Part shown: piece after piece, positions 19,857 to 62,047 of the stretch | Layout: each line of letters starts with the position of its first letter | Position numbering within the stretch: position 1 is the stretch's first letter | The notes under the pieces: generated by a model | Database searches by the model: none | Told to the model about the DNA's origin: nothing | What the model saw: only the letters and a program-made list of their open reading frames with translations | Origin: Litoditis marina | Lineage: Eukaryota > Nematoda > Chromadorea > Rhabditida > Rhabditidae | NCBI GenBank assembly: GCA_964036275.1 | Contig: OZ038435.1 | Coordinates: 20,252,793 to 20,316,792 of the forward strand | Direction of reading: 5' to 3' | Length of the DNA stretch: 64,000 bases | Made by a program: the position numbers and the translations under genes

Positions 19857-20260
19857 TGTTTTGCCGTTTTTGGCGCCTATTGGCGCCAGCACCGGGCGCC
19901 GATGGTGATGTATTTATCTCAGATTTGGCGCGACGGGCTAACTTTTGCATTATAACTCATGTTTCAAATTTCAGCTAAATCGGTTCGGTAGTTTTTCCGA
20001 TAGTGGTTTTTGGCGCCTATTGGCGCCCGCGCCCGGCGCCAATGAGGAGCTATACATCTCATATTTGGCGCGACATGCTAAATTTTGCATTAGAACTCAT
20101 GTTTCAAATTTCAGCTAAATCGGTTCGATAGTTTTTCCAATAGTCGTTTTTGGCGCCTATTGGCGCCCGCGCCCGGCGCCAGAGATTACATATACATTTC
20201 ATACTTGGCGCGACGAGCTAACTTTTGCCATAGAATAGATGTTTCAAAATTGGTTCAGTA
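19857..20260 (+). repeat. About 130-bp GGCGCC-rich tandem repeat, three units
   Basis: Units start near 19865, 19998 and 20143 with TTTTTGGCGCCTATTGGCGC. Each then has ATTTGGCGCGAC, ACTCATGTTTCAAATTTCAG and CTAAATCGGTTCG. Confidence 0.8.
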
Positions 20261-20342: not shown

Positions 20343-20646
20343 AATTACGGCGGAACTTTTCAACAACGACACGAAACCATAACTCAGGCGAAAATAATCC
20401 GATTTGGCTGAAATTTTCACACAATGTTCAATTCGTGATTCTCTAACGTTCTCTCTTTTTAGTTTTCAAAAAAAGAATATGTTTGAAGATTTTTGTTAAT
20501 TAAAAGGAAAAAACGAGTCCGCAATGGCCAAACCAAAGACAACTCACGCAGAGCGCTTCGCGCTCCGCGCGATATAGCGACTAGTCTCGTTCTATAATAT
20601 ATTCTAATCGACTTTTCAATAACCAGCTGTTTGGTGCACTGATAGG

Positions 20647-20816
20647 CAACCCGTACTAGATACGGCACAGCCAGGGGCGCGCTTATATAAACAAGGTCTT
20701 TCCAAACAGCTGTTGTTCCCTTGAGTAAGGTTGTCAGTGGTAGGTTGCCGCGGCGATTATAACTGGGGATACAGTACTCTTACGTGGCCTATGGCATGCG
20801 TTCCCGACGGGTGTCT
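20647..20816 (+). promoter_or_regulatory. Promoter-like repeat element E1
   Basis: Order of conserved parts: palindrome CCGTACTAGATACGG, GC box CAGGGGCGCGC, TATATAAACAAGG, then GTCAGTGGTAGGTTGCCG with CGGCGA about 50 nt later, and finally CATGCGTTCCCGACGGGTGT. The TATA-like box at constant distance suggests a transcribed unit of roughly 100 nt. No reading frame is kept among copies. Confidence 0.5.
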
Positions 20817-21235
20817 CATGACGTGAAGAACATTTTTGTAGTTTGAACTCCCTGCGATAAGAAGGAAAGTGAAGTCTTGGAAGTGAAGAACAATGTAGTT
20901 TGAACTTCCTGATATAAGGATTGAAGAGTTTTGACGGGAAGAACATTTTTGTAGTTTGAACTCAGTGTGATCAGGAGGATAATTTAGTTCACCCTGCCAC
21001 ACTCTGAAATTTGGAACAGATTGTTCCCGACTGTTTTTTTGTGAATTACATGTTTTTTTCCATATATTTTACAACAGAATCAGCAATGAAACATGAACTT
21101 CTAGAAGAATGAAAAATCTGGTTCTCATTTATCGACAATGTTCCTGAGGGATATCAGGTCAAATATTTTCAACGAAAACTCGCGAATTCGCTAGTGAGTA
21201 AGAGATTTAGCCGTTATTTCTCTGCCGCAAAGTGA

Positions 21236-21410
21236 CAACCCGTACTAGATACGACGCAGCTCGGGGCGCGCCTATATAGGCGAGATCTTTCTCTACGCAG
21301 TTAATGAGGTTCCCTGTCAAAACATCGTCAGTGGTATGTTGCCGCGGCGACAACCTACAGTGGATACAAAAGTTTCTTCGTCACCATGCATGCGTTCCCG
21401 ACGGGTGTAC
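21236..21410 (+). promoter_or_regulatory. Promoter-like repeat element E2
   Basis: Same parts as E1 with TATATAGGCGAG as the TATA-like box and a one-base change in the palindrome (TACGACG). Confidence 0.5.
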
Positions 21411-21530
21411 TTAAGGTGAAGAACATTTTGTAGTTTGAACTGAGTTTTTCAAACAAATCGCTTTCGACCGTTTCCATGTTTCACGTGAATACGCTGTATA
21501 CTGATACCGCTATTTTTCTGCCGCATTTAG

Positions 21531-21702
21531 GCAACCCGTAATAGGTACGGCGCAGCCAGGGGCGCGCTTATATAAACAAGGTCTTTCCCACCAGCTGTTG
21601 TTCCCTTGAGTAAGGTTGTCAGTGGTAGGTTGCCGCGGCGATTATAACTGGGGATACAGTACTCTTACGTGGCCTATGACATGCGTTCCCGACGGGTGTC
21701 TC
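21531..21702 (+). promoter_or_regulatory. Promoter-like repeat element E3
   Basis: Nearly identical to E1 downstream of the TATA-like box; palindrome altered to CCGTAATAGGTACGG. Confidence 0.5.
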
Positions 21703-22076
21703 ATGACGTGAAGAACATGTTTTGTTGTTTGAACTCCCTGCGATAAGAAGGAAAGTGTAGTTGGCAATGCCACTTATTACAATTTCATATTTCATAACGG
21801 GAAGAACATGTTCTGTAGTTTGAACTCAGTGTGATCAGGATGAAAATGTAGTTCGCCCTGCCACTCCACCACCACCTAACGGAACAATTAGTTTTCGACT
21901 GTTTCTACGTGAATATGCTTTATTTATCTATTTTTCCAAGCAACAAATTTTAAAGAAAAACTCGAAAACGAAACTATAAATGGTGTGTTCTTCTTTATTT
22001 CTCATCTTTCTAGGAGAGAACTGTGAGTTAATTGCCCTAGTGAAGAATGATGCTGATAGTTCGCTGCCGCAGATGG

Positions 22077-22248
22077 GCCACCCGTACTAGATACGGCGCA
22101 GCCAGGGGCGCGCCTATATAGGCGAGATGTTTCAAGCACCCGCTGTTCCCTTGAGGTATGTTGTCAGTGGTATCTTGCCGCGGCGATCACAAATAGGGAT
22201 ACAGTACCCTTCTAACGTGGCCTTTAACATGCGTTCCCGACGGGTGTA
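22077..22248 (+). promoter_or_regulatory. Promoter-like repeat element E4
   Basis: Intact palindrome, GC box, TATATAGGCGAG and both downstream boxes. It lies directly before the pre-array sequence of block 1. Confidence 0.5.
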
Positions 22249-22261
22249 AGAACGTGCAGTA

Positions 22262-22700
22262 CATTTTTAAGTATTATTATTATTGATAATTGATTGAAAT
22301 GTTATTAACTATTTTGAAGCTTTAGGAGATTAATGTCCTGGACTTTATTTCCCTTTCCGTTGAAATTGAATCAAAACAGACTGATGGTTTTGCTTACTTT
22401 ACATACTGTAGCAGTCTCAGTTTGGATGAAAAAAAAAACCCAAAAAGTATTTAAACGACGCAGAATCAAGTTTTTGGAAGAGTTACAGTTCTTTCTACGC
22501 TGTTAGAAAGTTAACTGTACATTCGTCGCCAACGGAAAGGTGGGAGGGTACTGTATATCTTATTTGGAATGTGAAGTCTAAAATGAAACTCTTACGTAGG
22601 AAACGTTTTGGGACTATTATACTTAATCTTCAATGAGTTATTTGGTTATTAAAGTTTAAAATCTTTAGTTGTATTATTATGGTGTGGTGTGTAAATTTGG
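22262..22700. repeat. Pre-array flank, block 1
   Basis: Matches 25955-26395 almost base for base (GATTAATGTCCTGGACTTTA, TACATACTGTAGCAGTC, CGTCGCCAACGGAAAGGTGG), then merges into the tail of a tRNA repeat unit. Confidence 0.8.
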
Positions 22701-22752
22701 TTGACCCGAACGAGCGCTGCGATACCAGGCTGGTTTGAGGATTCAGTGACAG

Positions 22753-22835
22753 GCCTGGGTAGCCAAGTGGTCAACGGCATGCGACTTATGATCGCACGGA
22801 GAAATCCTTCGCGGGTTCGAATCCCGCCTCAGGCA
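22753..22835 (+). tRNA. Class II tRNA, anticodon UAU (nev-tRNA-Ile-like), copy 1
   Basis: 83 nt with discriminator. Acceptor GCCTGGG/CTCAGGC; box A TAGCCAAGTGG; anticodon stem TGCGA/TCGCA with loop CTTATGA (anticodon UAU, G37). Variable arm CGGAGAAATCCTTC folds GGA/TCC. T-arm GCGGG TTCGAAT CCCGC holds a perfect box B. Discriminator A, no intron, TTTT terminator 5 nt downstream. The long variable arm with A73 and G37 is a leucine-type body, while UAU reads the isoleucine codon AUA. This matches the nematode V-arm tRNAs described as leucine-accepting. Confidence 0.93.
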
Positions 22836-23216
22836 AAAGTTTTGCATTTAACCGTCTGGAAGATATTTTGGGTCATATGATCTATTTTTTTCTGAAATAA
22901 CATCAGGAAGAGTTGAATATTTATCTTACATGCATTAAAAGCCATTCGAATCGATTTGAAATTGTTCCGACATATGACGTGAAAATTTGCTGCAACCAAA
23001 CGTCTTATTTAGAGTATGAAGATGTTTTTGAAAGCGAACTCTTACGCAGAAAACTCCACAAAACGTTTTTGGACTATTATACTTCATCTGCAATGAGTCA
23101 TTTGGTTATTGAAGTTTAAAATAACCCTTTAGTTGTATTATTATGGTGCGGTGTATAAATTTGGTTGACCCGAACGAGCGCTGCCATACCAGGCTGGTTT
23201 GAAGATTCAGTGACAG

Positions 23217-23299
23217 GCCTGGGTAGCCAAGTGGTCAACGGCATGCGACTTATGATCGCACGGAGAAATCCTTCGCGGGTTCGAATCCCGCCTCAGGCA
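23217..23299 (+). tRNA. Class II tRNA (UAU), copy 2
   Basis: Same 83-nt sequence as copy 1. It is followed by AAGTTCTGC, so the T-run terminator is broken (TTCT), unlike other copies. Confidence 0.9.
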
Positions 23300-23339
23300 A
23301 AAGTTCTGCATTTAACCGTCTGGAAGATATTTTGGGTCA

Positions 23340-23960
23340 TATGATCTATTTTTTTTGAAAATAACATCAGGAAGTGTGAAATAATCATAAAATAAAAGTG
23401 ATTCCAATCAGTTTTAATCCTACTTACGACGTGGAAAAACGTGTATTTTTGCTGCGTCGTGTTGGTATTGTTTTAAATACCATTGGGAAGAGGTGAATTT
23501 GAAACGCTAGAATGCGATAATATAGCCTGTTTTCATTATAAGGTTATTATGAACTACCTGGTTTCTTTTTATAGTTCTCAAAGCGGTTCAACTTATGATG
23601 ACCCAACTCTCTGAGAACAGAACTAAAATCGTTTTGAATCAGGGTCGAATCGATTTTGAGTACATCTATTACGGAGAACATTAATTTAACTATGACAATT
23701 ATATTTTGTTCAAATGAACTGACCTATTATCTGTTTCCTGTTCAAAGCGGTACGTATAAAGTCAATTGACCAGCAGATGTGGCCATATGCTAATTGCGAA
23801 TCTGTTATATAGAAACTATATTCAAGGGATAGCGCTACTCAAGTGCCCTTGTTCTACTTGGTACTGGGGTTACCGAGCTATTGGGGATAATCATCGCTGA
23901 ACGTGCCAACAAAATTTCCAACTGAGCTTGTCACGATGTTAACGTTTCCCAAAACATTAC
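23340..23960. repeat. Post-array flank, block 1
   Basis: Shares TATTTTTGCTGCGTCGTGT, AATACCATTGGGAAGAGG, GCAGATGTGGCCATATG and other segments, in the same order, with 39150-39460 after the main array. An extra segment is present here. Confidence 0.75.
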
Positions 23961-24004
23961 GAAAAATTCCGAGGTATTGCCAGAAGGCTTGCCAATCGGT
24001 AAAA

Positions 24005-24069
24005 ATTTTTCAATTGCAGTTTAAAGGACCGTTGACACGAAATTGGTCTACATAATCGTCCTTCTTTAA
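24005..24069. mobile_element. TTAA MITE, copy 7 (right half only)
   Basis: Only the distal arm remains (CAATTGCAGTTTAAAGGACC to CGTCCTTCTTTAA). It sits at the junction between blocks 1 and 2. Confidence 0.8.
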
Positions 24070-24356
24070 TGAGAGGTATACCGAGTCCGGCTAATGGCAG
24101 CCGTGCAAAAAGTTCTAATCAAGAGTGCGAAGGCGAAAAATATTCATAAACGCAATGTTGAACGAAACGTCGACCTGTTCAAAAGAATTTATGAGTTACA
24201 GATTTAAAGAATTTGCTTTAATCACCGAAAACGTTTTGTAATCTCACAGTTTCATATATGTGTACCTTAGATGTAAATTGATGCGTGTTCGATATTATAA
24301 GACTCCAGAATAAGGTAATGTAAAATTTTCGGAGATTGTGAAGGTAAACTCCCGGT

Positions 24357-24806
24357 CATTCCCACTGAGACTTGGCAGACAGCCAATGAATTTCCAAATG
24401 ACTTTAAACCACTTTAAAGTTGTCCAATAGATTACGAATCGCTGTTAGAGATTGTTCAGTTTCATAAGAACAAGTCGAAAAAAAGTCTTCAGAACACAGT
24501 CTGAGAAATAGCCATTCAAAAATCTCGGCTAGTTGCCAATGGGTCTCAGTGGGAATGAAACGAACTATACTGTGTTTCATCTGTCAAAAAGATCATATAT
24601 AGTTCGTTTCATTCCTACTGAGACCTCTTGGCATCAATAGCCTTTTTCTTAGAGAAAACTTGAGTGTTCTAAAGACATTTTTGTACACGTGTTCTTATGA
24701 AACTGAACAACCACTAGCAGAGATTTGGAGTGTTTTTGATGAACTGAAAGTGGTGAAAAACTGCCTTGATTATTGATTGGCACGCTGCCAGGTCTCAGTA
24801 GGAATG
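24357..24806. mobile_element. TIR element with internal palindrome
   Basis: Ends CATTCCCACTGAGACTTGGC and CTGCCAGGTCTCAGTAGGAA are inverted. A second inverted pair (GGTCTCAGTGGGAATGAAAC / GTTTCATTCCTACTGAGACC) lies in the middle. No transposase frame. Confidence 0.55.
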
Positions 24807-24980
24807 ACAGGAACTATATTTGATTTTGTTGATTGACCTCCACCTGTTCATATAAATCATCACATGGCAAAAAAAGATGAATCGAAACTGCTTCGATTAT
24901 GTCATCATTCGCCATTATACAGGCGGGTACTAACACAACTGTAATTCACAATATTGATTACTTATATCGATTGATTGTAG

Positions 24981-25429
24981 ATCAGAATGGTCATCGATCA
25001 ATCCGCTTCTCGTGGGTTTCGGTCAACAAGTATGTCTCCCCGTGAAACCGCGCTGCTCCGACTGCCTTTGCAGTTCAATTTGCCCTTCCTCGACTAAAAA
25101 GGAGGAAAAATCGATAATTTCTCCGAAAAAGGTAGATTTACGTGATCTTCTAGACGGTCGGAATATATTTACGTGTATGATCAAAAAAATCACTAGAATT
25201 CTCATTAAAGTATAAATTTGCGCGATAAGTGAAACATAAATACAGTGAAACGCGATTTTTTTAGCTCATGTTGTACAAAACGGTATTTCTCAGTTGAGTT
25301 TGAAATATAATGGCGGATCCTCAACTAATTTCAATTCAGGAAACAGTGGAGGAGCATCGTGAAGAGTTGGTCGAGAATCAACAGAAAACTGCGAGAAAAC
25401 CGAGAAGGGGAAAGACAGAGAAGAAGTAA
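24981..25429 (+). CDS. Duplicated nth-1 terminal exons 8' and 9'
   Basis: Exon 8' is 24981-25131 (151 nt, same length and phase as exon 8). Exon 9' is 25340-25429 (90 nt including TAA). All four iron-sulfur cysteines, the acceptor (gattgtag), donor (gtagat), second acceptor (ttcag) and the stop are intact. In exon 8' most differences from exon 8 are third-position synonymous; one residue changes (CLL to CLC). Exon 9' differs at several residues but keeps length and basic charge. No copy of exons 1-7 lies beside it. It is therefore either an alternative 3' end for nth-1 (spliced from exon 7 at 16637) or a recent non-functional duplicate. Confidence 0.6.
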
Positions 25430-25642
25430 TATTGTTTTGCTTGGTTAATGATTTGTTTGTATGGAGTATGAAGTTTTGCTGTGTCCATTAGAGAAAAAAA
25501 AACATTTTCGGGAAATACGATATTTTGCAGTAGCTTCAATCAGGAATAAAACTAAGTGCATGGAAAATAGTTTGTTCTTGTTCGAGGTTCTGTATTTTAT
25601 GCCATTCGACTTTCAATAACCAGCTGTCCGGTGCACTGATGT

Positions 25643-25815
25643 GCAACCCGTACTAGATACGGCGCAGCCAGGGGCGCGCCTATATAAACAAGGTCTTACC
25701 CACCCCCCCTGTTGTTCCCTTGACGAAAGTTGTCAGTGGTAGGTTGCCGCGGCGATCCAACTGGGATACAATACTCTGATCACGTAAATTACAGGCATGC
25801 GTTCCCGACGGGTGT
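25643..25815 (+). promoter_or_regulatory. Promoter-like repeat element E5
   Basis: Intact CCGTACTAGATACGG, GGGGCGCGCC, TATATAAACAAGG and both downstream boxes. Homology with E1 extends about 35 bp further upstream (AATAACCAGCTG). It precedes the main array flank. Confidence 0.5.
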
Positions 25816-25954
25816 CAGTCACGTGCACTACATTTACTTTTGTACATTTAGTATATTTACGGGGAAAATTGTACTATCACCCCCCCCCCCCTCCCAACAC
25901 GATTCCCTATAGAGAGGGGCGATATTGTAAATGGGGGGTGATTGTAAAATGTCG

Positions 25955-26395
25955 ACGTATCATTATTATTGATAATTGATTGAAATGCTATTAACTATTT
26001 TGAAGCTTTAGGAGATTAATGTCCTGGACTTTATTTCCCTTTCCGTTGAAATTGAATCAGAACAGACTGAAGGTTTTGCTTACTTTACATACTGTAGCAG
26101 TCCCAGTTTGGATGAGAAAAAAAAACCCAAAAAGTATTTAAACTACGCAGAATCAAGTTTTTGAAAGAGTTACAGTTCTTTCTACGCTGGTAGAAAGTTA
26201 ACTGTATAGTCGTCGCCAACGGAAAGGTGGGAGGGTACTGTATCTTATTTGGAGTGTGAAGATGTTTCTGAAATGAAACTCTTACGTAGGAAACGTTTTG
26301 GGACTATTATACTTAATCTTCAATGAGTTATTTGATTATTAAAAGTCAAAATAATCCTTTAGTTGTATTATTATGGTGTGGTGTGTAAATTTGGT
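25955..26395. repeat. Pre-array flank, block 2
   Basis: Counterpart of 22262-22700. Confidence 0.8.
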
Positions 26396-26446
26396 TGACC
26401 TGAACGAGCGCTGCCATACCAGGCTGGTTTGAGGATTCAGTGACAG

Positions 26447-26529
26447 GCCTGGGTAGCCAAGTGGTCAACGGCATGCGACTTATGATCGCACGGAGAAATC
26501 CTTCGCGGGTTCGAATCCCGCCTCAGGCA
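26447..26529 (+). tRNA. Class II tRNA (UAU), copy 3
   Basis: Canonical sequence; first unit of the main array. Confidence 0.93.
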
Positions 26530-26909
26530 AAAGTTTTGCATTTAACCGACTGGAAGATATATTGGGTCATATGATCTACTTTTTCTAAAATGACATCAGG
26601 AAGAGTTGAATATTCATCTTACATGCATTAAAAGCCATTCGAATCGATTTGAAACTCTTCCGACATGTGACGTGAAAATTTGCTGCAACCAAACGTCTTA
26701 TTTAGAGTATGAAGATGTTTTTGAAAGCGAACTCTTACGCAGAAAACTCAACAAAACGTTTTTGGACTATTATACTTCATCTGCAGTTAGTTATTTGGTT
26801 AGTAAAAGTCAAAATAATCCTTTAGTTGTATTATTATGGTGTGGTGTGTAAATTTGGTTGACCTGAACGAGCGCTGCCATACCAGGCTGGTTTGAGGATT
26901 CAGGGACAG

Positions 26910-26992
26910 GCCTGGGTAGCCAAGTGGTCAACGGCATGCGACTTATGATCGCACGGAGAAATCCTTCGCGGGTTCGAATCCCGCCCCAGGCA
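26910..26992 (+). tRNA. Class II tRNA (UAU), copy 4
   Basis: 3' acceptor strand CCCAGGC gives a full Watson-Crick acceptor stem. Upstream CAGGGACAG variant. Confidence 0.93.
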
Positions 26993-27372
26993 AAAGTTTT
27001 GCATTTAACCGACTGGAAGATATATTGGGTCATATGATCTACTTTTTCTAAAATGACATCAGGAAGAGTTGAATATTCATCTTACATGCATTAAAAGCCA
27101 TTCGAATCGATTTGAAACTCTTCCGACATGTGACGTGAAAATTTGCTGCAACCAAACGTCTTATTTAGAGAATGAAGATGTTTTTGAAAGCGAACTCTTA
27201 CGCAGAAAACTCAACAAAACGTTTTTGGACTATTATACTTCATCTGCAGTTAGTTATTTGGTTAGTAAAAGTCAAAATAATCCTTTAGTTGTATTATTAT
27301 GGTGTGGTGTGTAAATTTGGTTGACCTGAACGAGCGCTGCCATACCAGGCTGGTTTGAGGATTCAGTGACAG

Positions 27373-27455
27373 GCCTGGGTAGCCAAGTGGTCAACGGCAT
27401 GCGACTTATGATCGCACGGAGAAATCCTTCGCGGGTTCGAATCCCGCCCCAGGCA
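27373..27455 (+). tRNA. Class II tRNA (UAU), copy 5
   Basis: CCCAGGC acceptor variant as in copy 4. Confidence 0.93.
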
Positions 27456-27835
27456 AAAGTTTTGCATTTAACCGACTGGAAGATATATTGGGTCATATGA
27501 TCTACTTTTTCTAAAATGACATCAGGAAGAGTTGAATATTCATCTTACATGCATTAAAAGCCATTCGAATCGATTTGAAACTCTTCCGACATGTGACGTG
27601 AAAATTTGCTGCAACCAAACGTCTTATTTAGAGTATGAAGATGTTTTTGAAAGCGAACTCTTACGCAGAAAACTCAACAAAACGTTTTGGGACTATTATA
27701 CTTAATCTTCAATGAGTTATTTGGTTATTAAAGTTTAAAATAACCCTTTAGTTGTATTATTATGGTGTGGTGTGTAAATTTGGTTGACCTGAACGAGCGC
27801 TGCCATACCAGGCTGGTTTGAGGATTCAGTGACAG

Positions 27836-27918
27836 GTCTGGGTAGCCAAGTGGTCAACGGCATGCGACTTATGATCGCACGGAGAAATCCTTCGCGGGTT
27901 CGAATCCCGCCTCAGGCA
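27836..27918 (+). tRNA. Class II tRNA (UAU), copy 6
   Basis: Acceptor begins GTCTGGG, turning pair 2:71 into U-G. Confidence 0.9.
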
Positions 27919-28298
27919 AAAGTTTTGCATTTAACCGACTGGAAGATATATTGGGTCATATGATCTACTTTTTCTAAAATGACATCAGGAAGAGTTGAAT
28001 ATTCATCTTACATGCATTAAAAGCCATTCGAATCAATTTGAAACTCTTCCGACATGTGACGTGAAAATTTGCTGCAACCAAACGTCTTATTTAGAGTATG
28101 AAGATGTTTTTGAAAGCGAACTCTTACGCAGAAAACTCAACAAAACGTTTTTGGACTATTATACTTCATCTGCAGTTAGTTATTTGGTTAGTAAAATTCA
28201 AAATAATCCTTTAGTTGTATTATTATGGTGTGGTGTGTAAATTTGGTTGACCTGAACGAGCGCTGCCATACCAGGCTGGTTTGAGGATTCAGTGACAG

Positions 28299-28381
28299 GC
28301 CTGGGTAGCCAAGTGGTCAACGGCATGCGACTTATGATCGCACGGAGAAATCCTTCGCGGGTTCGAATCCCGCCTCAGGCA
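28299..28381 (+). tRNA. Class II tRNA (UAU), copy 7
   Basis: Canonical sequence. Confidence 0.93.
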
Positions 28382-28761
28382 AAAGTTTTGCATTTAACCG
28401 ACTGGAAGATATTTTGGGTCATATGATCTACTTTTTCTAAAATGACATCAGGAAGAGTTGAATATTCATCTTACATGCATTAAAAGCCATTCGAATCGAT
28501 TTGAAACTCTTCCGACATGTGACGTGAAAATTTGCTGCAACCAAACGTCTTATTTAGAGTATGAAGATGTTTTTGAAAGCGAACTCTTACGCAGAAAACT
28601 CAACAAAACGTTTTTGGACTATTATACTTCATCTGCAATTAGTTATTTGATTATTAAAAGTCAAAATAATCCTTTAGTTGTATTATTATGGTGTGGTGTG
28701 TAAATTTGGTTGACCTGAACGAGCGCTGCCATACCAGGCTGGTTTGAGGATTCAGTGACAG

Positions 28762-28844
28762 GCCTGGGTAGCCAAGTGGTCAACGGCATGCGACTTATGA
28801 TCGCACGGAGAAATCCTTCGCGGGTTCGAATCCCGCCTCAGGCA
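28762..28844 (+). tRNA. Class II tRNA (UAU), copy 8
   Basis: Canonical sequence. Confidence 0.93.
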
Positions 28845-29220
28845 AAAGTTTTGCATTTAACCGACTGGAAGATATATTGGGTCATATGATCTACTTTTTC
28901 TAAAATGACATCAGGAAGAGTTGAATATTCATCTTACATGCATTAAAAGCCATTCGAATCGATTTGAAACTCTTCCGACATGTGACGTGAAAATTTGCTG
29001 CAACCAAACGTCTTATTTAGAGTATGAAGATGTTTTTGAAAGCGAACTCTTACGCAGAAAACTCAACAAAACGTTTTTGGACTATTATACTTCATCTTCA
29101 ATGAGTTATTTGGTTATTAAAGTTTAAAATCTTTAGTTGTATTATTATGGTGTGGTGTGTAAATTTGGTTGACCTGAACGAGCGCTGCCATACCAGGCTG
29201 GTTTGAGGATTCAGTGACAG

Positions 29221-29303
29221 GCCTGGGTAGCCAAGTGGTCAACGGCATGCGACTTATGATCGCACGGAGAAATCCTTCGCGGGTTCGAATCCCGCCTCAG
29301 GCA
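29221..29303 (+). tRNA. Class II tRNA (UAU), copy 9
   Basis: Canonical; preceded by a 459-bp step. Confidence 0.93.
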
Positions 29304-29683
29304 AAAGTTTTGCATTTAACCGACTGGAAGATATATTGGGTCATATGATCTACTTTTTCTAAAATGACATCAGGAAGAGTTGAATATTCATCTTACATGC
29401 ATTAAAAGCCATTCGAATCGATTTGAAACTCTTCCGACATGTGACGTGAAAATTTGCTGCAACCAAACGTCTTATTTAGAGTATGAAGATGTTTTTGAAA
29501 GCGAACTCTTACGCAGAAAACTCAACAAAACGTTTTTGGACTATTATACTTCATCTGCAATTAGTTATTTGGTTAGTAAAATTCAAAATAATCCTTTAGT
29601 TGTATTATTATGGTGTGGTGTGTAAATTTGGTTGACCTGAACGAGCGCTGCCATACCAGGCTGGTTTGAGGATTCAGTGACAG

Positions 29684-29766
29684 GCCTGGGTAGCCAAGTG
29701 GTCAACGGCATGCGACTTATGATCGCACGGAGAAATCCTTCGCGGGTTCGAATCCCGCCTCAGGCA
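29684..29766 (+). tRNA. Class II tRNA (UAU), copy 10
   Basis: Canonical sequence. Confidence 0.93.
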
Positions 29767-30146
29767 AAAGTTTTGCATTTAACCGACTGGAAGATATTTT
29801 GGGTCATATGATCTACTTTTTCTAAAATGACATCAGGAAGAGTTGAATATTCATCTTACATGCATTAAAAGCCATTCGAATCGATTTGAAACTCTTCCGA
29901 CATGTGACGTGAAAATTTGCTGCAACCAAACGTCTTATTTAGAGTATGAAGATGTTTTTGAAAGCGAACTCTTACGCAGAAAACTCAACAAAACGTTTTT
30001 GGACTATTATACTTCATCTGCAATTAGTTATTTGATTATTAAAAGTCAAAATAATCCTTTAGTTGTATTATTATGGTGTGGTGTGTAAATTTGGTTGACC
30101 TGAACGAGCGCTGCCATACCAGGCTGGTTTGAGGATTCAGTGACAG

Positions 30147-30229
30147 GTCTGGGTAGCCAAGTGGTCAACGGCATGCGACTTATGATCGCACGGAGAAATC
30201 CTTCGCGGGTTCGAATCCCGCCTCAGGCA
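30147..30229 (+). tRNA. Class II tRNA (UAU), copy 11
   Basis: GTCTGGG acceptor variant, as in copy 6 five units earlier. Confidence 0.9.
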
Positions 30230-30609
30230 AAAGTTTTGCATTTAACCGACTGGAAGATATATTGGGTCATATGATCTACTTTTTCTAAAATGACATCAGG
30301 AAGAGTTGAATATTCATCTTACATGCATTAAAAGCCATTCGAATCAATTTGAAACTCTTCCGACATGTGACGTGAAAATTTGCTGCAACCAAACGTCTTA
30401 TTTAGAGTATGAAGATGTTTTTGAAAGCGAACTCTTACGCAGAAAACTCAACAAAACGTTTTTGGACTATTATACTTCATCTGCAGTTAGTTATTTGGTT
30501 AGTAAAATTCAAAATAATCCTTTAGTTGTATTATTATGGTGTGGTGTGTAAATTTGGTTGACCTGAACGAGCGCTGCCATACCAGGCTGGTTTGAGGATT
30601 CAGTGACAG

Positions 30610-30692
30610 GCCTGGGTAGCCAAGTGGTCAACGGCATGCGACTTATGATCGCACGGAGAAATCCTTCGCGGGTTCGAATCCCGCCTCAGGCA
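30610..30692 (+). tRNA. Class II tRNA (UAU), copy 12
   Basis: Canonical sequence. Confidence 0.93.
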
Positions 30693-31072
30693 AAAGTTTT
30701 GCATTTAACCGACTGGAAGATATTTTGGGTCATATGATCTACTTTTTCTAAAATGACATCAGGAAGAGTTGAATATTCATCTTACATGCATTAAAAGCCA
30801 TTCGAATCAATTTGAAACTCTTCCGACATGTGACGTGAAAATTTGCTGCAACCAAACGTCTTATTTAGAGTATGAAGATGTTTTTGAAAGCGAACTCTTA
30901 CGCAGAAAACTCAACAAAACGTTTTTGGACTATTATACTTCATCTGCAGTTAGTTATTTGGTTAGTAAAATTCAAAATAATCCTTTAGTTGTATTATTAT
31001 GGTGTGGTGTGTAAATTTGGTTGACCTGAACGAGCGCTGCCATACCAGGCTGGTTTGAGGATTCAGTGACAG

Positions 31073-31155
31073 GCATGGGTAGCCAAGTGGTCAACGGCAT
31101 GCGACTTATGATCGCACGGAGAAATCCTTCGCGGGTTCGAATCCCGCCTCAGGCA
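31073..31155 (+). tRNA. Class II tRNA (UAU), copy 13
   Basis: Acceptor begins GCATGGG: an A-G mismatch at pair 3:70 may impair it. Confidence 0.85.
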
Positions 31156-31535
31156 AAAGTTTTGCATTTAACCGACTGGAAGATATTTTGGGTCATATGA
31201 TCTACTTTTTCTAAAATGACATCAGGAAGAGTTGAATATTCATCTTACATGCATTAAAAGCCATTCGAATCGATTTGAAACTCTTCCGACATGTGACGTG
31301 AAAATTTGCTGCAACCAAACGTCTTATTTAGAGTATGAAGATGTTTTTGAAAGCGAACTCTTACGCAGAAAACTCAACAAAACGTTTTTGGACTATTATA
31401 CTTCATCTGCAATTAGTTATTTGATTATTAAAAGTCAAAATAATCCTTTAGTTGTATTATTATGGTGTGGTGTGTAAATTTGGTTGACCTGAACGAGCGC
31501 TGCCATACCAGGCTGGTTTGAGGATTCAGTGACAG

Positions 31536-31618
31536 GCCTGGGTAGCCAAGTGGTCAACGGCATGCGACTTATGATCGCACGGAGAAATCCTTCGCGGGTT
31601 CGAATCCCGCCTCAGGCA
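31536..31618 (+). tRNA. Class II tRNA (UAU), copy 14
   Basis: Canonical sequence. Confidence 0.93.
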
Positions 31619-31998
31619 AAAGTTTTGCATTTAACCGACTGGAAGATATATTGGGTCATATGATCTACTTTTTCTAAAATGACATCAGGAAGAGTTGAAT
31701 ATTCATCTTACATGCATTAAAAGCCATTCGAATCGATTTGAAACTCTTCCGACATGTGACGTGAAAATTTGCTGCAACCAAACGTCTTATTTAGAGTATG
31801 AAGATGTTTTTGAAAGCGAACTCTTACGCAGAAAACTCAACAAAACGTTTTTGGACTATTATACTTCATCTGCAGTTAGTTATTTGGTTAGTAAAAGTCA
31901 AAATAATCCTTTAGTTGTATTATTATGGTGTGGTGTGTAAATTTGGTTGACCTGAACGAGCGCTGCCATACCAGGCTGGTTTGAGGATTCAGTGACAG

Positions 31999-32081
31999 GC
32001 CTGGGTAGCCAAGTGGTCAACGGCATGCGACTTATGATCGCACGGAGAAATCCTTCGCGGGTTCGAATCCCGCCTCAGGCA
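31999..32081 (+). tRNA. Class II tRNA (UAU), copy 15
   Basis: Canonical sequence. Confidence 0.93.
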
Positions 32082-32461
32082 AAAGTTTTGCATTTAACCG
32101 ACTGGAAGATATATTGGGTCATATGATCTACTTTTTCTAAAATGACATCAGGAAGAGTTTAATATTCATCTTACATGCATTAAAAGCCATTCGAATCGAT
32201 TTGAAACTCTTCCGACATGTGACGTGAAAATTTGCTGCAACCAAACGTCTTATTTAGAGTATGAAGATGTTTTTGAAAGCGAACTCTTACGCAGAAAACT
32301 CAACAAAACGTTTTTGGACTATTATACTTCATCTGCAATTAGTTATTTGGTTAGTAAAAGTCAAAATAATCCTTTAGTTGTATTATTATGGTGTGGTGTG
32401 TAAATTTGGTTGACCTGAACGAGCGCTGCCATACCAGGCTGGTTTGAGGATTCAGTGACAG

Positions 32462-32544
32462 GCATGGGTAGCCAAGTGGTCAACGGCATGCGACTTATGA
32501 TCGCACGGAGAAATCCTTCGCGGGTTCGAATCCCGCCTCAGGCA
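32462..32544 (+). tRNA. Class II tRNA (UAU), copy 16
   Basis: GCATGGG acceptor mismatch, as in copy 13. Confidence 0.85.
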
Positions 32545-32924
32545 AAAGTTTTGCATTTAACCGACTGGAAGATATATTGGGTCATATGATCTACTTTTTC
32601 TAAAATGACATCAGGAAGAGTTTAATATTCATCTTACATGCATTAAAAGCCATTCGAATCGATTTGAAACTCTTCCGACATGTGACGTGAAAATTTGCTG
32701 CAACCAAACGTCTTATTTAGAGTATGAAGATGTTTTTGAAAGCGAACTCTTACGCAGAAAACTCAACAAAACGTTTTTGGACTATTATACTTCATCTTCA
32801 ATGAGTTATTTGGTTATTAAAAGTCAAAATAATCCTTTAGTTGTATTATTATGGTGTGGTGTGTAAATTTGGTTGACCTGAACGAGCGCTGCCATACCAG
32901 GCTGGTTTGAGGATTCAGTGACAG

Positions 32925-33007
32925 GCCTGGGTAGCCAAGTGGTCAACGGCATGCGACTTATGATCGCACGGAGAAATCCTTCGCGGGTTCGAATCCCGCC
33001 TCAGGCA
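32925..33007 (+). tRNA. Class II tRNA (UAU), copy 17
   Basis: Canonical sequence. Confidence 0.93.
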
Positions 33008-33383
33008 AAAGTTTTGCATTTAACCGACTGGAAGATATATTGGGTCATATGATCTACTTTTTCTAAAATGACATTAGGAAGAGTTGAATATTCATCTTAC
33101 ATGCATTAAAAGCCATTCGAATCGATTTGAAACTCTTCCGACATGTGACGTGAAAATTTGCTGCAACCAAACGTCTTATTTAGAGTATGAAGATGTTTTT
33201 GAAAGCGAACTCTTACGCAGAAAACTCAACAAAACGTTTTTGGACTATTATACTTCATCTTCAATTAGTTATTTGATTATTAAAGTTTAAAATCTTTAGT
33301 TGTATTATTATGGTGTGGTGTGTAAATTTGGTTGACCTGAACGAGCGCTGCCATACCAGGCTGGTTTGAGGATTCAGTGACAG

Positions 33384-33466
33384 GCCTGGGTAGCCAAGTG
33401 GTCAACGGCATGCGACTTATGATCGCACGGAGAAATCCTTCGCGGGTTCGAATCCCGCCTCAGGCA
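33384..33466 (+). tRNA. Class II tRNA (UAU), copy 18
   Basis: Canonical; 459-bp step before it. Confidence 0.93.
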
Positions 33467-33846
33467 AAAGTTTTGCATTTAACCGACTGGAAGATATATT
33501 GGGTCATATGATCTACTTTTTCTAAAATGACATTAGGAAGAGTTGAATATTCATCTTACATGCATTAAAAGCCATTCGAATCGATTTGAAACTCTTCCGA
33601 CATGTGACGTGAAAATTTGCTGCAACCAAACGTCTTATTTAGAGTATGAAGATGTTTTTGAAAGCGAACTCTTACGCAGAAAACTCAACAAAACGTTTTT
33701 GGACTATTATACTTCATCTTCAATTAGTTATTTGATTATTAAAAGTCAAAATAATCCTTTAGTTGTATTATTATGGTGTGGTGTGTAAATTTGGTTGACC
33801 TGAACGAGCGCTGCCATACCAGGCTGGTTTGAGGATTCAGTGACAG

Positions 33847-33929
33847 GCCTGGGTAGCCAAGTGGTCAACGGCATGCGACTTATGATCGCACGGAGAAATC
33901 CTTCGCGGGTTCGAATCCCGCCTCAGGCA
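33847..33929 (+). tRNA. Class II tRNA (UAU), copy 19
   Basis: Canonical sequence. Confidence 0.93.
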
Positions 33930-34309
33930 AAAGTTTTGCATTTAACCGACTGGAAGATATATTGGGTCATATGATCTACTTTTTCTAAAATGACATTAGG
34001 AAGAGTTGAATATTCATCTTACATGCATTAAAAGCCATTCGAATCGATTTGAAACTCTTCCGACATGTGACGTGAAAATTTGCTGCAACCAAACGTCTTA
34101 TTTAGAGTATGAAGATGTTTTTGAAAGCGAACTCTTACGCAGAAAACTCAACAAAACGTTTTTGGACTATTATACTTCATCTTCAATTAGTTATTTGATT
34201 ATTAAAAGTCAAAATAATCCTTTAGTTGTATTATTATGGTGTGGTGTGTAAATTTGGTTGACCTGAACGAGCGCTGCCATACCAGGCTGGTTTGAGGATT
34301 CAGTGACAG

Positions 34310-34392
34310 GCCTGGGTAGCCAAGTGGTCAACGGCATGCGACTTATGATCGCACGGAGAAATCCTTCGCGGGTTCGAATCCCGCCTCAGGCA
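34310..34392 (+). tRNA. Class II tRNA (UAU), copy 20
   Basis: Canonical sequence. Confidence 0.93.
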
Positions 34393-34772
34393 AAAGTTTT
34401 GCATTTAACCGACTGGAAGATATATTGGGTCATATGATCTACTTTTTCTAAAATGACATTAGGAAGAGTTGAATATTCATCTTACATGCATTAAAAGCCA
34501 TTCGAATCGATTTGAAACTCTTCCGACATGTGACGTGAAAATTTGCTGCAACCAAACGTCTTATTTAGAGTATGAAGATGTTTTTGAAAGCGAACTCTTA
34601 CGCAGAAAACTCAACAAAACGTTTTTGGACTATTATACTTCATCTTCAATTAGTTATTTGATTATTAAAAGTCAAAATAATCCTTTAGTTGTATTATTAT
34701 GGTGTGGTGTGTAAATTTGGTTGACCTGAACGAGCGCTGCCATACCAGGCTGGTTTGAGGATTCAGTGACAG

Positions 34773-34855
34773 GCCTGGGTAGCCAAGTGGTCAACGGCAT
34801 GCGACTTATGATCGCACGGAGAAATCCTTCGCGGGTTCGAATCCCGCCTCAGGCA
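34773..34855 (+). tRNA. Class II tRNA (UAU), copy 21
   Basis: Canonical sequence. Confidence 0.93.
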
Positions 34856-35235
34856 AAAGTTTTGCATTTAACCGACTGGAAGATATATTGGGTCATATGA
34901 TCTACTTTTTCTAAAATGACATTAGGAAGAGTTGAATATTCATCTTACATGCATTAAAAGCCATTCGAATCGATTTGAAACTCTTCCGACATGTGACGTG
35001 AAAATTTGCTGCAACCAAACGTCTTATTTAGAGTATGAAGATGTTTTTGAAAGCGAACTCTTACGCAGAAAACTCAACAAAACGTTTTTGGACTATTATA
35101 CTTCATCTGCAATTAGTTATTTGATTATTAAAAGTCAAAATAATCCTTTAGTTGTATTATTATGGTGTGGTGTGTAAATTTGGTTGACCTGAACGAGCGC
35201 TGCCATACCAGGCTGGTTTGAGGATTCAGTGACAG

Positions 35236-35318
35236 GCCTGGGTAGCCAAGTGGTCAACGGCATGCGACTTATGATCGCACGGAGAAATCCTTCGCGGGTT
35301 CGAATCCCGCCTCAGGCA
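35236..35318 (+). tRNA. Class II tRNA (UAU), copy 22
   Basis: Canonical sequence. Confidence 0.93.
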
Positions 35319-35698
35319 AAAGTTTTGCATTTAACCGACTGGAAGATATATTGGGTCATATGATCTACTTTTTCTAAAATGACATCAGGAAGAGTTGAAT
35401 ATTCATCTTACATGCATTAAAAGCCATTCGAATCGATTTGAAACTCTTCCGACATGTGACGTGAAAATTTGCTGCAACCAAACGTCTTATTTAGAGTATG
35501 AAGATGTTTTTGAAAGCGAACTCTTACGCAGAAAACTCAACAAAACGTTTTTGGACTATTATACTTCATCTTCAATTAGTTATTTGATTATTAAAAGTCA
35601 AAATAATCCTTTAGTTGTATTATTATGGTGTGGTGTGTAAATTTGGTTGACCTGAACGAGCGCTGCCATACCAGGCTGGTTTGAGGATTCAGTGACAG

Positions 35699-35781
35699 GC
35701 CTGGGTAGCCAAGTGGTCAACGGCATGCGACTTATGATCGCTCGGAGAAATCCTTCGCGGGTTCGAATCCCGCCTCAGGCA
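35699..35781 (+). tRNA. Class II tRNA (UAU), copy 23
   Basis: TCGCT instead of TCGCA opens the outer pair of the anticodon stem. Confidence 0.87.
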
Positions 35782-36161
35782 AAAGTTTTGCATTTAACCG
35801 ACTGGAAGATATATTGGGTCATATGATCTACTTTTTCTAAAATGACATCAGGAAGAGTTGAATATTCATCTTACATGCATTAAAAGCCATTCGAATCGAT
35901 TTGAAACTCTTCCGACATGTGACGTGAAAATTTGCTGCAACCAAACGTCTTATTTAGAGTATGAAGATGTTTTTGAAAGCGAACTCTTACGCAGAAAACT
36001 CAACAAAACGTTTTTGGACTATTATACTTCATCTTCAATTAGTTATTTGATTATTAAAAGTCAAAATAATCCTTTAGTTGTATTATTATGGTGTGGTGTG
36101 TAAATTTGGTTGACCTGAACGAGCGCTGCCATACCAGGCTGGTTTGAGGATTCAGTGACAG

Positions 36162-36244
36162 GCCTGGGTAGCCAAGTGGTCAAAGGCATGCGACTTATGA
36201 TCGCACGGAGAAATCCTTCGCGGGTTCGAATCCCGCCTCAGGCA
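36162..36244 (+). tRNA. Class II tRNA (UAU), copy 24
   Basis: D-arm GTCAAAGGC (C to A beside the D-stem). Confidence 0.9.
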
Positions 36245-36624
36245 AAAGTTTTGCATTTAACCGACTGGAAGATATATTGGGTCATATGATCTACTTTTTC
36301 TAAAATGACATCAGGAAGAGTTGAATATTCATCTTACATGCATTAAAAGCCATTCGAATCGATTTGAAACTCTTCCGACATGTGACGTGAAAATTTGCTG
36401 CAACCAAACGTCTTATTTAGAGTATGAAGATGTTTTTGAAAGCGAACTCTTACGCAGAAAACTCAACAAAACGTTTTTTGACTATTATACTTCATCTTCA
36501 ATTAGTTATTTGATTATTAAAAGTCAAAATAATCCTTTAGTTGTATTATTATGGTGTGGTGTGTAAATTTGGTTGACCTGAACGAGCGCTGCCATACCAG
36601 GCTGGTTTGAGGATTCAGTGACAG

Positions 36625-36707
36625 GCCTGGGTAGCCAAGTGGTCAACGGCATGCGACTTATGATCGCTCGGAGAAATCCTTCGCGGGTTCGAATCCCGCC
36701 TCAGGCA
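36625..36707 (+). tRNA. Class II tRNA (UAU), copy 25
   Basis: TCGCT anticodon-stem variant. Confidence 0.87.
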
Positions 36708-37087
36708 AAAGTTTTGCATTTAACCGACTGGAAGATATATTGGGTCATATGATCTACTTTTTCTAAAATGACATCAGGAAGAGTTGAATATTCATCTTAC
36801 ATGCATTAAAAGCCATTCGAATCGATTTGAAACTCTTCCGACATGTGACGTGAAAATTTGCTGCAACCAAACGTCTTATTTAGAGTATGAAGATGTTTTT
36901 GAAAGCGAACTCTTACGCAGAAAACTCAACAAAACGTTTTTGGACTATTATACTTCATCTTCAATTAGTTATTTGATTATTAAAAGTCAAAATAATCCTT
37001 TAGTTGTATTATTATGGTGTGGTGTGTAAATTTGGTTGACCTGAACGAGCGCTGCCATACCAGGCTGGTTTGAGGATTCAGTGACAG

Positions 37088-37170
37088 GCCTGGGTAGCCA
37101 AGTGGTCAACGGCATGCGACTTATGATCGCACGGAGAAATCCTTCGCGGGTTCGAATCCCGCCTCAGGCA
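37088..37170 (+). tRNA. Class II tRNA (UAU), copy 26
   Basis: Canonical sequence. Confidence 0.93.
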
Positions 37171-37546
37171 AAAGTTTTGCATTTAACCGACTGGAAGATA
37201 TATTGGGTCATATGATCTACTTTTTCTAAAATGACATCAGGAAGAGTTGAATATTCATCTTACATGCATTAAAAGCCATTCGAATCGATTTGAAACTCTT
37301 CCGACATGTGACGTGAAAATTTGCTGCAACCAAACGTCTTATTTAGAGTATGAAGATGTTTTTGAAAGCGAACTCTTACGCAGAAAACTCAACAAAACGT
37401 TTTTGGACTATTATACTTAATCTTCAATGAGTTATTTGGTTATTAAAGTTTAAAATCTTTAGTTGTATTATTATGGTGTGGTGTGTAAATTTGGTTGACC
37501 TGAACGAGCGCTGCCATACCAGGCTGGTTTGAGGATTCAGTGACAG

Positions 37547-37629
37547 GCCTGGGTAGCCAAGTGGTCAAAGGCATGCGACTTATGATCGCACGGAGAAATC
37601 CTTCGCGGGTTCGAATCCCGCCTCAGGCA
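37547..37629 (+). tRNA. Class II tRNA (UAU), copy 27
   Basis: GTCAAAGGC D-arm variant; 459-bp step before it. Confidence 0.9.
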
Positions 37630-38005
37630 AAAGTTTTGCATTTAACCGACTGGAAGATATATTGGGTCATATGATCTACTTTTTCTAAAATGACATCAGG
37701 AAGAGTTGAATATTCATCTTACATGCATTAAAAGCCATTCGAATCGATTTGAAACTCTTCCGACATGTGACGTGAAAATTTGCTGCAACCAAACGTCTTA
37801 TTTAGAGTATGAAGATGTTTTTGAAAGCGAACTCTTACGCAGAAAACTCAACAAAACGTTTTTGGACTATTATACTTAATCTTCAATGAGTTATTTGGTT
37901 ATTAAAGTTTAAAATCTTTAGTTGTATTATTATGGTGTGGTGTGTAAATTTGGTTGACCTGAACGAGCGCTGCCATACCAGGCTGGTTTGAGGATTCAGT
38001 GACAG

Positions 38006-38088
38006 GCCTGGGTAGCCAAGTGGTCAAAGGCATGCGACTTATGATCGCACGGAGAAATCCTTCGCGGGTTCGAATCCCGCCTCAGGCA
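38006..38088 (+). tRNA. Class II tRNA (UAU), copy 28
   Basis: GTCAAAGGC variant; its unit is a near copy of the preceding one. Confidence 0.9.
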
Positions 38089-38468
38089 AAAGTTTTGCAT
38101 TTAACCGACTGGAAGATATATTGGGTCATATGATCTACTTTTTCTAAAATGACATCAGGAAGAGTTGAATATTCATCTTACATGCATTAAAAGCCATTCG
38201 AATCGATTTGAAACTCTTCCGACATGTGACGTGAAAATTTGCTGCAACCAAACGTCTTATTTAGAGTATGAAGATGTTTTTGAAAGCGAACTCTTACGCA
38301 GAAAACTCAACAAAACGTTTTTGGACTATTATACTTCATCTTCAATTAGTTATTTGATTATTAAAAGTCAAAATAATCCTTTAGTTGTATTATTATGGTG
38401 TGGTGTGTAAATTTGGTTGACCTGAACGAGCGCTGCCATACCAGGCTGGTTTGAGGATTCAGTGACAG

Positions 38469-38551
38469 GCCTGGGTAGCCAAGTGGTCAACGGCATGCGA
38501 CTTATGATCGCTCGGAGAAATCCTTCGCGGGTTCGAATCCCGCCTCAGGCA
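38469..38551 (+). tRNA. Class II tRNA (UAU), copy 29
   Basis: TCGCT anticodon-stem variant. Confidence 0.87.
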
Positions 38552-38931
38552 AAAGTTTTGCATTTAACCGACTGGAAGATATATTGGGTCATATGATCTA
38601 CTTTTTCTAAAATGACATCAGGAAGAGTTGAATATTCATCTTACATGCATTAAAAGCCATTCGAATCGATTTGAAACTCTTCCGACATGTGACGTGAAAA
38701 TTTGCTGCAACCAAACGTCTTATTTAGAGTATGAAGATGTTTTTGAAAGCGAACTCTTACGCAGAAAACTCAACAAAACGTTTTTGGACTATTATACTTC
38801 ATCTTCAATTAGTTATTTGATTATTAAAAGTCAAAATAATCCTTTAGTTGTATTATTATGGTGTGGTGTGTAAATTTGGTTGACCTGAACGAGCGCTGCC
38901 ATACCAGGCTGGTTTGAGGATTCAGTGACAG

Positions 38932-39014
38932 GCCTGGGTAGCCAAGTGGTCAACGGCATGCGACTTATGATCGCACGGAGAAATCCTTCGCGGGTTCGAA
39001 TCCCGCCTCAGGCA
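38932..39014 (+). tRNA. Class II tRNA (UAU), copy 30
   Basis: Canonical tRNA, last in the array. The flank after it diverges (ACAAGTTTTGCATTGAACC) but keeps the TTTT terminator. Confidence 0.93.
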
Positions 39015-39129
39015 CAAGTTTTGCATTGAACCGATTAGTGTATAGTTTGGGTCCTATGATCTACTTTTTCTAAAATAACATCAGGAAGAGTTGAATATTC
39101 ATCTTACATGCATTAAAAGCCATTCGAAT

Positions 39130-39470
39130 CGATTTGAAACTGTTCCGACTTTTGACGTGGAAAAACATGTATTTTTGCTGCGTCGTGTCGGTATTTTTTT
39201 AAATACCATTGGGAAGAGGTTTGAAACGCTACAATGCGATATTGTACCCTATTATTATTATAAGGTCGTTGTTATTATATTATTATTTTCGGTATATTAT
39301 GTGGTTATCATAAACTTTCTGTTTTCTGTTCAAAGTGGTACGTTTATGAAGTCAATTGGGTATTATCTAGCAGATGTGGCCATATGGTAATTGCGAATCT
39401 GTTGTACAGAAGCTATATTCAAGAGATGGCGCAACTGAAGTGCTCTTGTACAACTTAGGGCCAATTCCAC
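39130..39470. repeat. Post-array flank, block 2
   Basis: Counterpart of 23340-23960. The reading frame across 39091-39390 is not supported as a gene. Confidence 0.75.
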
Positions 39471-42095: not shown

Positions 42096-42481
42096 CACAC
42101 TACAGATAAGACTACAACTCCCGAAGTCATCTTTCAAAAGCACTTCGCAGACTCAAATGTTCAAGAAATTTACAAATTAGTGAAGGTATTCAGTTTTGTA
42201 ACGGAGCCCAATACTGAATAATGTGTTAGTTATACAAATGTTCTACTATCCACCTGAACCTATCAAGTCAGACTACATATCAGAGGATCAGACTACAGTT
42301 CAAAGCTGCTCCAATTTACCCTCTCACACAGTCTCACCAATGTTGAACCGTTTTCTTAAACCTAACAGATCAAACTACAAACTATAGTTCACTAAATTGT
42401 CTGAAACATGTCTGAAATATCAGTTTTTTCGTTTCATTGCTTCACGATCAGCTGTGCTCCCTTATACCGCCGCAACTGAGA

Positions 42482-42656
42482 AACCCGTACTAAATACGGC
42501 GCAGCCAGGGTGGCGCCTATATAAGCAAAGCCCATCCTGCCAGCGGTTGTTCCCTAGAAGTGTGTTGTCAGTGGTATGTTGCCGCGGCGATCTAAATAGG
42601 GATACAGTATACCCGACTGTTTGATCTACCGTTGGCATGCGTTCCCGACGGGTGTC
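42482..42656 (+). promoter_or_regulatory. Promoter-like repeat element E6
   Basis: CCGTACTAAATACGG palindrome, GCGCAGCCAGG, CCTATATAAGC, GTCAGTGGTATGTTGCCG and CATGCGTTCCCGACGGGTGT. It lies far from the tRNA array, so the element is dispersed. Confidence 0.5.

Positions 42657-61980: not shown

Positions 61981-62047
<67 letters not shown>

Follow-up and report, generated by a model that had tools for sequence, protein, structure and literature searches.

We analysed a window of 64,000 nucleotides from the nematode Litoditis marina (contig OZ038435.1, positions 20,252,793 to 20,316,792 of the forward strand), which is part of contig C3 in our designation of the 261.8-Mb assembly. The locus of interest holds thirty transfer RNA (tRNA) genes with anticodon TAT, all on the plus strand, the first of which starts at 22753 (ARAGORN). 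The Rfam model RF00005 matches all thirty, with scores of 52.4-60.9 bits where the cut-off is 29, and the copy number together with these covariance scores excludes a chance origin of the calls. The features of the locus are as follows.

22271..22752, no strand: left flank of the mini-array formed by copies 1 and 2; duplicate at 25957-26446 (93.9%, 492 bp)
22729..22752, plus strand: 24-bp upstream element adjoining copy 1, one mismatch; the same element adjoins 30/30 window copies
22753..22835, plus strand: nev-type tRNA-Ile(UAU) copy 1 (ARAGORN, Rfam), identical to the consensus
23217..23299, plus strand: nev-type tRNA-Ile(UAU) copy 2, terminator TTTT changed to TTCT
23300..26290, no strand: 3 kb separating the mini-array from the main array; it opens with sequence like the right flank of the main array and closes with sequence like the left flank
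26291..39164, plus strand: main array, units of ~463 bp (459 bp in some) in tandem with tRNA copies 3-30 (Tandem Repeats Finder, TRF); tRNA starts 26447 to 38932
38932..39014, plus strand: tRNA copy 30, the last, with the consensus sequence; its 3' flank is diverged
39165..39456, no strand: right flank of the main array; parts resemble 23439-23544 and 23730-23859

A first-pass annotation, made from the sequence alone, had described thirty class II tRNAs of 83 nucleotides, and ARAGORN and Rfam bear this out for 30/30: each is 83 nucleotides long with anticodon UAU in a CTTATGA loop. Its count of eighteen identical copies was also correct (the remaining 12 fall into five single-substitution haplotypes), as was its remark that only copy 2 lacks an intact terminator, since TTTT follows the tRNA immediately in 29/30 copies and TTCT in copy 2. 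The internal boxes look intact by eye; the B box reads GGTTCGAATCC and was judged against what we take to be the B box consensus. One stem pair is broken in 5/30 copies, namely pair 3:70 in copies 13 and 16 and the first anticodon-stem pair in copies 23, 25 and 29.

The description of the locus as a single thirty-copy array holds for the number and the span (22753-39014) but not for the layout, which is 2 + 28 copies with ~3.1 kb separating copies 1-2 from copies 3-30. In the larger group TRF reports a period of 463 bp with 27.8 copies and 98% matches, the units standing head to tail in a single orientation and at a fixed period. Copies 1-2 and the main array have their left flank in common (93.9% over 492 bp) as well as parts of the right flank (82-87%), and these shared flanks suggest that a mini-array was duplicated and that one of its halves expanded.

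Within the main array the tRNA is as variable as its spacer. Among copies 3-29, variable columns number 5/83 in the tRNA, 15/126 upstream beyond position -30 and 5/210 downstream beyond +20, with 1/30 and 0/20 in the sequences directly upstream and downstream. Set against both outer spacers pooled (20/336), the tRNA does not differ (Fisher p = 1.0), although with the spacers taken separately the upstream one exceeds the tRNA in variability and the downstream one falls below it. The array looks like recent duplication of a unit followed by homogenisation, with no extra selection per copy, and this favours neutral expansion. The first-pass annotation had left the choice between selection for dosage and neutral expansion open; the second is the one favoured, as the tRNA is no more constrained than the spacer.

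By its features, rather than by sequence homology, we class the array tRNA as a Leu-like class II UAU tRNA of the nematode variable-arm (nev) type. It folds as a class II cloverleaf with a 3-bp variable arm (V-arm) at -32.9 kcal/mol (z -2.35), and the V-arm region comprises 14 nucleotides between the anticodon stem and the T stem, a count that shifts with the point chosen as the start of the arm. The anticodon is of neither the Leu nor the Ser type, and a canonical cognate tRNA-Ile(UAU) is also present. The setting is the nuclear genome of a nematode, probably one of clade V. What we take to be the SL1 22-mer has 765 exact matches as compared to 0 in the reversed control. At C1:64508-90920 it recurs mostly at ~1367-bp spacing, as an SL1 (perhaps 5S) array.

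A tRNA of this kind has been described before; here and below we draw on excerpts of the cited papers. nev-tRNA-Ile(UAU) is known from Caenorhabditis and other nematodes (PMC4300185, PMC4033280). The nev-tRNAs of C. elegans are weakly expressed, CCA-tailed and exported, they accepted only leucine in vitro, nev-tRNA-Ile included, and nev copy numbers rose during nematode evolution (PMC4300185). The L. marina tRNA agrees with this type in being encoded in the nuclear genome of a nematode, in its long variable arm, its UAU anticodon and, for most copies, its good cloverleaf, and in coexisting with a separate canonical tRNA-Ile(UAU). It differs from the published nev-tRNA-Ile in its numbers (61 copies in the genome, 28 of them in one tandem array), in a private upstream element at 60/61 copies and perhaps in the V-arm region, given as 15-20 nucleotides for nev-tRNAs (PMC4300185) as compared to 14 by our count here. 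The proposal that these are nev-type class II tRNAs of a nematode, Leu-like but bearing Ile(UAU) as their anticodon, is thus upheld by the features of the tRNA, by the published description (PMC4300185), by SL1 and by the neighbouring SPT6 gene. For the other published type, nev-tRNA-Gly(CCC), one class II CCC pattern found no match, and a nev-tRNA-Gly with a different D-arm would escape that pattern.

The whole-genome check of fold and copy number that the first-pass annotation had suggested gives a class II fold and 61 copies on four contigs (C2, C3, C4 and C16), 30 of them in the window, with 0 in the control. These were found with a 35-base tRNA pattern allowing up to 3 mismatches, to which 49/61 are exact. 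In a search that left the anticodon free, it is TAT in 60/61 matches and TTT in 1 (C4:37172135); within 3 mismatches this search found no sister tRNA with a Leu anticodon on the same body. One further odd locus, C2:6635136, is a 3'-truncated nev-tRNA. Among the 59 complete copies read, TAT and A73 are kept in 59/59, 31 are perfect and 50 are free of newly broken pairs; the loop reads CTTATGA in 57/59 and ATTATGA in 2, and bases 10-12 and 24-26 are invariant among the 28 distinct rows of the alignment.

Conservation was scored over 31 loci, that is 2 copies from the window and 29 of the 31 outside it (all except the truncated C2:6635136 and C4:37172135). Measured against the consensus, identity averages 0.988 over the tRNA, 0.969 over positions -27 to -1 and 0.939 over +1 to +10, and it drops to 0.49 over -75 to -61. 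At 16 pairs of C2 loci, flank pieces of 46-323 bp align at 67-87% (one at 96%) and the tRNA differs at 0-3/83 sites; this comparison is confined to C2, as other alignments partly include a neighbouring tandem copy. The nev-type family looks constrained, in that dispersed copies keep the tRNA with its UAU, G37 and A73 as well as the upstream element, and their flanks diverge. Likeness to other tRNAs does not point to one parent of the family: tRNA-Leu(UAG) agrees with the nev-tRNA in 51/90 alignment columns and canonical tRNA-Ile(UAU) in 47/85.

The upstream element is a private feature of this family. Allowing up to 3 mismatches, its 24 bases occur 62 times in the genome (1 in the control), 60/62 occurrences adjoin a nev-tRNA copy and 60/61 copies have the element; the two that stand with no matching tRNA copy adjoining lie at C4:37205780 and C4:37211862. 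The element contains a B-box-like GGTTYGAARATTC, and it is preceded by CCAGGC, which is complementary to tRNA bases 1-6. Among the 28 distinct rows one changes both sides of this putative pairing (A-28 with U6), another has U6 with no change of its partner and further rows break pairs; a longer precursor folds in silico with CCAGGC paired, at a z of -1.04, which is not notable. We regard the pairing as a lead only.

The large copy number has to be seen against the other tRNA genes of this genome. Pattern searches for Ile(UAU), Leu(CAA), Leu(UAG), SL1 and Met list about 100 places each, among which the types given here were read. On C4 an array with ~299-bp units consists of canonical class I tRNA-Ile(UAU), whose genes have an 11-base intron. 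The 5'-half pattern for this tRNA (29 places, up to 2 mismatches) has 176 matches as compared to 1 in the control; ARAGORN takes many of these genes for Tyr or Ala and gives them false long introns, so that their identity was read from the anticodon loops. tRNA-Leu(CAA), with an intron, lies in ~300-bp units on C3 (pattern count 204). ARAGORN labels these genes Thr(CGT) with a 31-base intron, and we identified them by their anticodon loops and by a presumed likeness to the human gene; the matches listed all belong to this type apart from two Ser-like ones, which are isolated and receive no tRNA gene call. tRNA-Leu(UAG) lies in ~314-bp units on C16 (pattern count 247, with all matches listed of this type), and tRNA-Met(CAU) has 106 matches, most of them ~450 bp apart at C3:16.32-16.43 Mb; the tRNA-Met(CAU) of the window (8762-8836) is a lone copy. 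To these are added tRNA-Thr(UGU), with 61 rows on C17 that mostly lie 149 bp apart, and tRNA-Arg(UCG), with 27 genes in 10 kb on C1 (26 called Arg and one Pro with a false intron). Seven tRNA families, six ordinary ones and the nev type, thus stand in arrays of a single isoacceptor with units of 149-463 bp. Because ordinary families are arrayed too, tRNA amplification is a habit of this genome and not a special dosage signal. The suggestion that the array is a special amplification of a Leu-for-Ile decoder finds no support in this comparison, with 176 canonical Ile(UAU) matches to 61 nev-type copies and six ordinary families in arrays.

We met no description of tandem tRNA arrays in nematodes among the papers listed from the open-licence literature searched, and the excerpts of PMC3923123 and PMC8961926 hold nothing on arrays. 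Nuclear tRNA genes stand in tandem arrays in Entamoeba as well, but in units of up to five tRNA genes (PMC2652664) as compared to one isoacceptor per unit here, and in an animal. Nematostella and teleosts also have tRNA gene clusters, of fifty and more genes, for which local duplication was suggested as the cause; neighbouring pairs are mostly heterogeneous in Nematostella and zebrafish and mostly homogeneous in Tetrahymena, Monosiga and drosophilids (PMC2888827), and the L. marina arrays are homogeneous with near-fixed units of 149-463 bp. Human 1q23.3 is likewise a tRNA tandem repeat, variable at 9-43 units, but its unit is 7.3 kb long (PMC4041453) and not a short single-tRNA unit.

Protein-coding genes of the same contig offer a view of how AUA is read. 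SPT6 lies to the right of the array on the minus strand, at about 43923-63640, in many small exons, and its best matches, with 61-62% identity, come from Parelaphostrongylus tenuis and Heligmosomoides polygyrus, among homolog candidates limited to a length band so that other nematodes may be missing. We considered codons with at least 10 aligned homologs, for which 8/20 AUA codons qualify. Isoleucine is the majority residue at 4/8 of these (79/80, 109/117, 45/72 and 11/16 homologs), valine at 1 (44/89) and glutamate at 1 (9/11), and the share of Ile-majority sites does not differ from that at AUC and AUU (23/47, p 1.0). In the adenylate cyclase gene, which lies to the right of SPT6 (in L076), one AUA falls at isoleucine in each of the 5 alignments shown (four AC9, one AC5), out of 25 matches. 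For PRP8 exons of this contig (L078), 837 residues could be aligned with chain 8ro0_A, a homolog that we take to be C. elegans PRP8. The 838 codons read in these exons include 48 Ile codons and no AUA, an absence that does not bear on Ile versus Leu; the AUA share of Ile codons is 0/48 in PRP8 as compared to 8/55 in SPT6 (p 0.007). In the same exons GGG makes up 1/39 Gly codons. A full reassignment of AUA to leucine was considered and is not favoured, as AUA sits at near-invariant Ile sites in SPT6 and at an Ile site in adenylate cyclase. AUA thus appears to be read as isoleucine at conserved places, and since it is also absent from the 838 PRP8 codons, neither full reassignment nor codon demand would explain the tRNA numbers; the sample is small, and speaks against full reassignment but not against low-level ambiguity.

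With regard to charging, the eukaryotic Leu determinants are A73, C3-G70, A4-U69, G5-C68, a large variable region and U8:A14; in yeast in vivo G18, 1-methylguanosine m1G37, pseudouridine Psi55 and A73 are strong and G2, G30, C61 and C62 moderate; and the eukaryotic Ile determinants are N34, A35 and U36, with threonylcarbamoyladenosine t6A37 a determinant only for bacterial-type and human-type (human and related mammals) isoleucyl-tRNA synthetase (IleRS) (PMC9976931). The nev-tRNA has A73, C3-G70, G5-C68, the large variable arm, U8 and A14, and also G37; leucine is the better prediction.

Taken together, we consider it probable that the locus is a local tandem expansion of a genuine nev-type tRNA, mainly a neutral growth in dosage of a conserved minor tRNA with AUA not reassigned; the array is probably not a change of the code. 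Its units would have multiplied by unequal crossing-over, with the family as a whole under selection. RNA polymerase III would transcribe the nev-tRNA from its internal A and B boxes, and after maturation leucyl-tRNA synthetase would charge it with leucine. G37 beside U36 would weaken AUA reading, in view of the role of modification at position 37. Because G37 cannot carry t6A and canonical tRNA-Ile(UAU) genes outnumber it, the nev-tRNA may contribute little to AUA decoding. As an amplified Leu-for-Ile decoder the array thereby loses much of its significance, and the conservation of the family and its upstream element are the more interesting result.

Several points weigh against this interpretation. 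Gene conversion rather than selection could keep the dispersed copies alike, and as the family was counted to 3 mismatches its degenerate relatives may be undercounted. The seven arrayed families are a sample, in which Thr and Arg were met by chance (as best scores) and the others were chosen, and the canonical arrays were mostly counted as pattern matches, which may include copies that are not intact. Transcription, maturation and charging are predictions from sequence. The nev-tRNA has U4-A69 and not A4-U69, and C2 and not the G2 of yeast, and it carries the Ile determinants A35 and U36, so that charging with isoleucine is possible. Finally, AUA stands at Leu-majority positions at 2/8 SPT6 sites, with leucine in 105/112 homologs (51174, minus strand) and in 38/59, as Leu decoding would allow; the near-invariant one of these keeps low-level ambiguity open.

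One could imagine a selected amplification, in which the array raises the dose of a Leu-charged tRNA and AUA is partly read as leucine, constantly or under stress. The two SPT6 sites, the anticodon and Leu-type features conserved across dispersed loci and the in vitro charging of published nev-tRNA-Ile with leucine only (PMC4300185) would all suit such a scenario. However, the excess of leucine at AUA is not significant (2/8 as compared to 5/47 for AUC and AUU, Fisher p 0.27), AUA sites are Leu-majority less often than Leu codons (61/98, p 0.06), AUA encodes near-invariant Ile sites, canonical Ile(UAU) matches outnumber the nev type about three to one, albeit by different patterns, six ordinary families are arrayed too and the array puts no extra constraint on the tRNA. 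The C. elegans proteome, moreover, gave no Gly-to-Leu replacement at GGG in the excerpted account, which covered no Ile-to-Leu replacement at AUA, the two residues having the same mass (PMC4300185). We think this scenario unlikely. Only a shade less so, and still unlikely, is a related speculation in which the family is selected and separately regulated: the upstream element would drive use in certain tissues or under stress, with low-level reading of AUA as leucine by leucine-charged copies; sensitive genes like PRP8 would avoid AUA and others tolerate Ile/Leu ambiguity; array size would set the dose, and CCAGGC may add a switch in the precursor.

Alternatively, the nev-tRNA might be an ordinary extra reader of AUA charged with isoleucine, if IleRS reads A35 and U36 despite the V-arm. 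All of N34, A35 and U36 are compatible with this, and with t6A37 not needed outside the bacterial and human types G37 need not block the worm enzyme (PMC9976931); yet the V-arm, A73 and G37 fit leucine, and the C. elegans nev-tRNA-Ile accepted only leucine in vitro (PMC4300185), which makes this improbable. We hold it more improbable again that a selfish or mobile RNA polymerase III unit of ~145 bp (upstream element, tRNA and terminator) has spread in the manner of a short interspersed element, with no cellular role. A conserved core from about -45 to +17 in otherwise unlike flanks, the two upstream elements with no matching tRNA copy and the one 3'-truncated copy are what such a unit might leave behind, but the diverged and still alignable flanks at 16 C2 pairs fit old duplication, and 49/61 matches are exact in the 35-mer though 3 mismatches were allowed.

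The locus bears on a standing puzzle, as nev-tRNAs should mistranslate and are yet kept. That many dispersed copies keep the anticodon, the discriminator and a private upstream element argues for a function. A natural 28-copy array would, if variable between strains, represent a ready dosage series for the question of whether leucine appears at AUA. With at least seven tRNA families in isoacceptor-specific arrays in one nematode, tRNA gene number is not simply readable as codon demand.

The window also holds other repeats, and six of its open reading frames gave no Pfam match. A ~200-bp repeat family (with ccgtactagatacggcgcagccagg) lies at 20640-22270 and 25640-25840, beside the starts of the mini-array and the main array, and inverted near 42450-43030. 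A ~65-bp dispersed repeat, at about 24005-24070 and elsewhere, occurs more than a dozen times in the window, in both orientations. Short tandem repeats occupy 3024-3600 (169-bp unit, 3.4 copies) and 19865-20248 (140-bp unit, 2.7 copies).

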